NCBI RefSeq assembly: GCF_024266585.1
Contig: NZ_CP100647.1
Coordinates: forward strand, 725,001 to 789,000
Reading direction: 5' to 3'
Length of the DNA stretch: 64,000 nt
Source of the DNA: Xanthomonas sacchari
Lineage (GTDB): Bacteria; Pseudomonadota; Gammaproteobacteria; Xanthomonadales; Xanthomonadaceae
The notes below the pieces were generated by a model. The model saw only the letters and a list, made by a program, of their open reading frames with translations. It was not told the origin of the DNA and searched no databases. Shown piece after piece: positions 49,958 to 50,732 of the stretch; within the stretch, counting starts at the first letter, position 1, and each line of letters starts with the position of its first letter. Made by a program: the position numbers and the translations under genes.

Positions 49958-50732
49958 GCCGTTGCCGTTGCCGTTGCCGTTGCCGTTGCTGTCGTTTTGG
50001 CTTTTGACTTACCGGGTTCCCTTCCGAAGCGGCGAACCAGGCGGGAAAAACCCGAAGGGCGGCGCACAGGGATGTGCGCCGTCCGCGGCAGGGGCAGGAT
50101 GCCCCTTCCGCGGATCCCGTCTGGTTCGCGGACCCGGAGCGCGCAGCGCGGAGGGCGCGTAGGCAGGGCGCGCTTTCTTTTGGTTACCTTTTCTTTGCGC
50201 GAGCAAAGAAAAATAACTCGCCCGTTAGGGCGAAAGCCTTTGCTGTTGTTTGAATTTTGCGTGTCAGACGAGAAGTTCTGTAGGAGCGGCTTCACCCGCG
50301 ACCGACGTAATCGGTAGTGCCTGTCGCCGCTCAAGTCGCTCCTACATCTAGCAGCGGCAGCAGCAAGAGCAAGAGCAAGAGCAAAGCTTTCGCCTTGCGG
50401 CGAGTTACTTTTCTTTGCTTGTGCAAAGAAAAGTAACCAAAAGAAAGCACACCCTGCCTCGCGCCCTCCGCGCTAACGCGCTCCGGGTCCGCGTCCAGCC
50501 CGGGGATCCGCGGAAGGGGCATCCTGCCCCTGCCGCGGACGGCGCACATCCCTGTGCGCCGCCCCTTCGGGGTTTTTCCCCGGGCTGGCCGCCGCTTCGG
50601 AAGGGAACCCGGTAAGTCAAAAGCCAGAACAACGGCAACAGCAGAAGCAAGGGCAACAGCAACATCAGGAGCAACGGCAACGGCAACGGCAACAGCAACA
50701 GCAACAGCCAAAGCCAAAGCCAAAGCCAAAGC
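49958..50732. repeat. Large nested inverted repeat with hexanucleotide ends
   Basis: Outer ends: tandem 'gccgtt' at about 49958-49989 and complementary aacggc/aacagc/aaagcc repeats at about 50671-50732. Arms of about 250 bp (about 49994-50243 and 50370-50629) match at roughly 85-90 percent by eye, including 'ggcgcacagggatgtgcgcc' in both. Centre: an inverted REP pair at 50279-50346. The 49745-50765 interval has no supportable gene; the open frames on both strands here arise from the repeat. Confidence 0.85.

Follow-up and report, generated by a model that had tools for sequence, protein, structure and literature searches.

The locus described here lies in a 64,000-nucleotide stretch of Xanthomonas sacchari DNA (the window, to which all coordinates refer), where it separates the 3' end of a LacI-family gene (PF00356, PF13377) from the 5' end of a gene with a YkuD domain, both genes being encoded on the minus strand. 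It consists of two inverted arms around a 142-bp core that holds an inverted REP doublet, with arrays of hexamers on either side. The left outer array, (TGCCGT)5.5 (49957-49989, no strand), is followed by the left arm (50005-50240, plus strand, 236 bp), the core, the right arm (50383-50619, minus strand, 237 bp) and the right outer arrays (50630-50732, no strand; CAACAG-like at 50630-50708 and AGCCAA at 50706-50732). The arms are 88.9% alike over 243 aligned columns, and the two REPs, a GTAG-type REP 1 (50279-50302, plus strand) and REP 2 (50323-50346, minus strand), are 83% complementary; an inner hexamer array, (AGCAAG)3.8, lies at 50362-50384 (no strand). Folded as DNA, the two 775-nt strands reach -376 and -375 kcal/mol, versus shuffle means of -162 and -165 (z -39 and -42, 20 shuffles each). 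The nested palindrome reported in the initial annotation, with its arms, REP doublet and hexamer arrays, is thus genuine, and folding both strands, the check proposed there, gave structures far above shuffles. The hairpin that it placed within the arms, TTTCTTTG..CAAAGAAA, is present in the left and right arm alike. Other details needed correction: the arms are real, but closer to 237 than to 250 bp in length; the hexamers on the right, taken as the complement of the GCCGTT repeat on the left, are so only in part, being a mixture of CAACGG, CAACAG and AGCCAA; and the gene called a xylR candidate, at whose exact 3' end the unit was placed, does adjoin it as the LacI-family gene, but the last array ends 33 bp short of its stop codon. 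Taken as a whole, the earlier interpretation of a palindromic repeated unit with a REP core, for which a large secondary structure is possible, was partly supported.

Copies of the arm are numerous. BLAST with the left arm returned at least 30 pieces in the 4.89-Mb genome, and at least 23 arms could be assigned to 16 places, comprising 7 inverted pairs with a REP core and 9 single arms, a count that is a lower bound as 40 of 65 candidates were scored. These places are mostly intergenic, with no ORF touching the arm in 7 and one ORF in 9, the latter being crude calls that are mostly short, or long with a true start that may lie further in. The search for copies in Xanthomonas suggested earlier thus found the arm repeated in its own genome and, with between 2 and 31 matches each, in all 20 genomes of the genus that were examined. 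Among the matches listed, its hairpin occurs in named genomes (at least 120 stretches) of Xanthomonas, Lysobacter, Luteimonas, Pseudoxanthomonas and Stenotrophomonas, and also of Methylomonas, Pseudomonas, Halopseudomonas, Aggregatibacter, Psychromonas and others. A model of 61 positions of the pseudoknot domain described below (R1), used at E up to 1e-4 with E-values that are rough owing to a short calibration, matched 89 of 369 genomes and 73 of 272 genera of the Gammaproteobacteria; in a phylum-wide set it matched 53 of 398 genomes, all 53 of them Gammaproteobacteria. Far matches to the hairpin part were also seen on replicons of Burkholderia, Aeromonas and Pseudoalteromonas. Plasmids yielded only partial matches, covering at most 27% of the arm, in 9 of 72,556 records, and there were no arm matches in phages or in E. 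coli. A search of Rfam 15 with window positions 49000-51500 at E up to 1 returned a single match, mir-3613 (E 0.9), far under its threshold, and 14 loci gave no match at Rfam 15 gathering scores. Neither a description of the arm element nor a bacterial repeat with a triple-helix pseudoknot was found in the open-access literature among the matches listed. The element is thus widespread in Gammaproteobacteria and apparently previously undescribed.

Comparison of the arms pointed to a 5' domain with several branches and, downstream of it, an H-type pseudoknot in the 3' part. The alignment used for this purpose (A1) holds 102 of the 135 non-identical arms of the genus, the other 33 being mostly near-duplicates; an alignment that included reverse-strand partial matches (A3) did not enter the counts. 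RNAalifold proposed 78 pairs on A1, 23 of them with double changes. A 67-pair structure with stems named by hand was paired in 98.6% of cells, compared to 91.2% in shuffled alignments and at most 47.4% when the strands were slid, and double changes occurred in 25 of the 67 pairs and in 485 cells versus 20.6 and 137 in shuffles, a level reached in 0 of 500 shuffles, which overstate the independence of related rows and matches. Further pair types were no more numerous than in shuffles (52 versus 53.5). Both strands vary in stems P1, P3 and P4, the last of which changes en bloc. G-U pairs fill 148 cells (86 of them from just two column pairs) and A-C mismatches 26, or 147 and 11 once helix P7 is set aside, which accounts for 15 of the 26 A-C cells and includes misaligned rows. 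This large excess of G-U over A-C identifies the plus strand of the arm as the folding strand. Compensatory covariation on one strand, the property by which structured RNAs are recognised, is therefore present in the arm, and the fold could act in single-stranded DNA instead of RNA. Folded as RNA, the window arms themselves give z -6.55 (left) and -8.54 (right). Some arms carry extra hairpin modules at fixed places: a 28-nt module in arms of L069, L070, L072, L073 and L076, a module of about 90 nt in P4 of arms in L062, L065, L066 and L068, and, in L069 and L062, the short module flanking the long stem on either side.

The tetraloop of the long hairpin, P6, divides the arms into two main subtypes, GCGA or ACGA on the one hand and ACAA on the other, which proved to be two states of one helix, formed between four upstream bases and the hairpin loop (UGUG with CACA, CGCG with CGCG, or CGUG with CACG). 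In the left arm of the window, of the GCGA-loop subtype, the 5' strand of this helix (CGCG) is at 50169-50172 on the plus strand (A1 columns 201-204) and the 3' strand at 50198-50201, within P6 (50183-50217, plus strand), whose long stem is slightly damaged by an extra C and one A-C mismatch. The right arm, of the ACAA-loop subtype, has its 5' strand (UGUG) at 50448-50451 and a P6 with a perfect 15-bp stem and the loop ACAA at 50404-50437, both on the minus strand. In A1, the two varying positions of the helix pair in 101 and 102 of the 102 rows, and 78 cells have changed on both sides, compared to 30 in shuffles; as the pseudoknot strands are both dinucleotide repeats, 97.3% of cells remain paired after a slide of -2 columns, with double changes falling from 78 to 34. 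Outside the genus, where other letters are found, a run of at least 5 bp is present in 36 of 51 hits (two of 53 having been removed as duplicates), versus 19.4% of mispaired combinations (permutation 0/2000). Since the upstream strand lies outside the R1 model, this relation also supports the R1 hits being real.

Between the upstream pseudoknot strand and the hairpin lies a loop, L1, which in both window arms reads UUUCUUUU (50174-50181, plus strand; 50439-50446, minus strand) and corresponds exactly, as a parallel Hoogsteen copy, to the stem purine strand AAAGAAAA, so that as the predicted third strand it would form U.A-U and C+.G-C triples over 8 positions. In an H-type pseudoknot, the loop at that place crosses the major groove of the stem. 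Of the 78 hits compared outside the genus (two of 29 rows, both reverse-strand, having been left out), the usual loop is present in 48, of which 46 match over all 8 positions, a number favoured by R1, since that loop and its stem are part of the model. The 30 hits with other loops have a mean run of 6.5, compared to 5.3 when loops and stems are mispaired (permutation 0/5000), and a run of at least 7 in 19 of 30 versus 25.6%; examples are UUUUCUUU with AAAAGAAA, UUCUCUUU with AAGAGAAA and UUUCUUCUU with AAAGAAGAA. At two loci where a stem pair is turned round (L252 and L269), the loop has a G opposite the resulting T, which fits with G.T-A being a known triple. The third-strand loop thus covaries with the stem purines as the sequence of a triple-helix pseudoknot should, and we predict from this comparison that a single strand of the arm folds into such a structure.

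The relation between loop and stem is a mirror rather than an inverted repeat, which hairpin self-correction is incapable of producing, and therefore gives the strongest argument that the fold is under selection. It bears directly on the proposal that the arms are a repeat of DNA only, with a functionless fold, whose palindromes arise and stay perfect through gene conversion and template switching (quasi-palindrome correction). Inverted repeats do self-correct, and the exchange between loci and the flips described below are what such processes would leave behind, but correction cannot copy a mirror, yet the third strand covaries, and G-U stands far above A-C; we consider this origin quite improbable. 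The cruciform suggested in the initial annotation is possible for the palindrome as a whole, but it leaves unexplained the strand asymmetry and the covariation of pseudoknot and triplex, features that indicate a fold of one strand by itself.

Structures of a related kind are known. In the ENE elements of transposable-element RNAs and in the telomerase RNA pseudoknot, a U-rich loop lies in the major groove of an A-rich stem. The arm resembles these in its U-rich third strand, and ENEs are also tied to mobile elements, but both are eukaryotic or viral and have another overall fold. A bacterial H-type pseudoknot with a triple helix is described for the guanidine-III riboswitch in the available part of its report (PMC5696562). 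According to this part, the riboswitch is a cis-regulatory piece of mRNA, whereas the arms are present in many copies, show no orientation bias as single arms (n=9) and no common neighbour, and have a pyrimidine tract of 8 positions.

No pair was seen to join two arms of the same subtype: 57 of 58 distinct inward pairs are mixed, and one is unassignable owing to a deletion. Partners are not each other's closest relatives, since none of 60 arms (3 of 63 having no full-length partner) is nearest to its partner, the mean likeness being 0.877 to the partner and 0.966 to the most similar arm of the same type elsewhere in the genome. Among 17 relatives that have the left neighbour gene, 14 have a pair next to it, one has a single arm, one a remnant and one nothing, the LacI-family gene being the other neighbour as well in six of the 17. 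The chance that the palindrome is a recent local duplication or an artefact of assembly, the latter named in the initial annotation as a way in which it might be wrong, is thus negligible; we regard it as refuted by the ortholog and partner comparisons.

The arrangement of the pair does change between species. At the window site, the GCGA arm is on the left in the window genome and in one relative (G006), and the ACAA arm is on the left in the 13 other pairs; at locus L075, the subtype order in two of five genomes is opposed to that in the other three. Flips were thus seen at two of seven paired loci, the five remaining loci (4-5 genomes each) having none. The core turns together with the arms in close relatives and is too diverged to judge in distant ones, and since arm order and core orientation are reversed together, the unit inverts as a whole. 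Sequence exchange between loci can be concluded from the nearest relatives of 63 arms, which are a copy in the same genome for 17 and the ortholog for 45, with one tied. Pair sites are otherwise very stable, unlike those of an active mobile element. Presence and absence were found at two single-arm loci, both picked because the window genome seemed to be without them. At the first, over 620 compared bases, the arm is present in G010, G011 and G013, present in the opposite orientation in G006, and missing from G000, G007 and G009; the second is filled in G006, G009 and G010 and empty in G000 and G007, with a different left flank beside the arm of G013 and a G011 sequence that is not comparable. 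There is no clear target duplication at these two loci with filled and empty sites, so that the difference may reflect insertion or deletion, and no terminal inverted repeats, which along with such duplications characterise MITEs, were seen on single arms.

The initial annotation proposed that the unit was built by duplication around a REP, and suggested checking whether arms always flank a REP pair. This is not borne out by the single arms at 9 of 16 places, by the old subtypes common to different loci, or by the cores themselves, as a REP is present in 43 of the 58 pairs and absent from 15 by a simple pattern search. The arms have no GTAG- or GTGG-headed palindrome and no GTAG-type end, such REPs being confined to the core at 50279-50346. 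Three of the 58 cores, all in relatives, are long, each having an insert (L154:762-2083, L183:788-2186 and L090:1732-3011) that breaks a REP at its GTAGGAG head, which makes the REP a target in these cases; two of the inserts encode IS110-family transposases, and the L090 insert has the left end of one of those two. Within the spacer, the REP doublet appears to be no more than a passenger. A dispersed repeat beginning GTCAACTGTCATGCAACCACGACG lies about 50-200 bp from single arms in L184, L175, L188, L182, L201 and L073; it may be a remnant or short relative of the IS110-type insert of L154, whose left end is similar to the first bases of this repeat.

REPs and BIMEs are described, in the part of the source available (PMC2817692), as dispersed intergenic palindromes that form inverted doublets and are linked to RAYT transposases, and the core of our unit is such a GTAG-type doublet. 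The arms differ from what is described there in being about ten times longer, lacking a GTAG end and occurring also without REPs and in genomes without a RAYT match. The arms could nevertheless be unusually long transposon ends, serving as single-stranded DNA substrates of REP-associated or other HUH transposases, for which folding limited to one strand and the doublet in 43 of 58 pairs would speak, as would the frequency of RAYT-family matches (model NF047646, E up to 0.001), which were obtained in 73 of the 89 element-bearing genomes compared to 179 of 280 others, an association that is weak (odds ratio 2.6, P 0.0016). The other sixteen element-bearing genomes gave none at this cut-off, so that dependence on RAYT is rejected, and with the 15 REP-less pairs and the arms' missing GTAG-type end this makes such a role rather unlikely. 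The nearest printed item, which may be a member of the arm's family, is R178 of P. fluorescens SBW25, given in the accessible portion of its report as a 101-bp intergenic repeat with an internal 11-bp inverted repeat and 9-28 copies per genome (PMC2718517). Compared by description only, it shares with the arm its intergenic position, short length and internal inverted repeat, and the record of another Pseudomonas, P. abyssi, carries the arm's hairpin; the same portion describes no pseudoknot, triplex or paired subtypes.

It is also conceivable that the pair acts on transcripts, with read-through from both directions running into a sense arm, the triple helix of which would stabilise the RNA or terminate it. 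Triple-helix pseudoknots protect RNA 3' ends elsewhere, and from each flank of the window pair the sense arm is indeed met first. The bidirectional boundary proposed in the initial annotation found no specific support, as both flanking genes are on the minus strand and single arms have no gene-orientation bias: by crude ORF calls in the window genome, four are oriented with both flanking genes, four against both, and one lies between convergent genes. Nor is the hairpin followed by a U-run. No bias relative to replication was visible on inspection either, taking coordinate 1 as the origin. The genes beside 48 loci of other genera (records not titled Xanthomonas) are ordinary, no Pfam family occurring in more than 3 of the 71 ORFs scanned there, out of 129 of our own ORF calls listed, with most short ones left out. 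At 26 of 50 loci of other genera, a second copy lies within 1.5 kb, and of 27 neighbouring pairs 23 are outward, 3 inward and 1 tandem, so that the sense arm is mostly not met first; overall, we find a boundary or mRNA-stabilising function unlikely. The loops differ in 27 of these 27 pairs, with a possible selection bias since each locus was recruited by its best match. The asymmetric pair is thus general, and the inward order of the window is the rarer one in other genera.

Judged from sequence comparison, the best explanation is probably that the palindrome combines, in an asymmetric inverted arrangement, two copies of a structured non-coding element that is dispersed in genomes and is a candidate non-autonomous mobile element of the SINE or MITE type. 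The mobile-element reading is suggested by the dispersal of the arms, their presence or absence at given loci and their lack of linkage to particular genes. The U-rich loop would run as a parallel third strand along the hairpin stem, and an RNA or single-stranded DNA form may be recognised through its fold by an enzyme or other protein supplied in trans. The paired unit keeps its orthologous sites while inverting as a whole between species and exchanging sequence with copies in the same genome, and the two subtypes may be kept in each pair to avoid cross-pairing of the triplex/pseudoknot units or a perfect palindrome. A bolder proposal, which we put forward only tentatively, is that the arms represent an unnamed class of mobile structured RNA throughout the Gammaproteobacteria, in which triple-helix pseudoknots are paired with different codes, a bacterial counterpart of SINEs that is moved via an RNA intermediate by trans-acting machinery that reads the triplex. 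If true, common bacteria carry a large dispersed element family with a fold absent from Rfam, which would provide an RNA structure open to direct testing, a candidate for a new class of non-autonomous mobile elements and an origin for chromosomal inversions and gene conversion; the arm family may also account for unexplained intergenic palindromes of many genomes.

Two minor observations concern other repeats and arrangements. Two genomes of the genus (L172 and L205) share, at one site, an outward arm pair with a spacer of about 300 bp. Elsewhere in the window, tracts of the heptamers GGGAATA/GGGAATC are present at 21352-21443 and 35940-36038, with their complement close by, and possibly correspond to the quadruplex-forming Xanthomonas repeat named in the title of an earlier report (PMC4692102).
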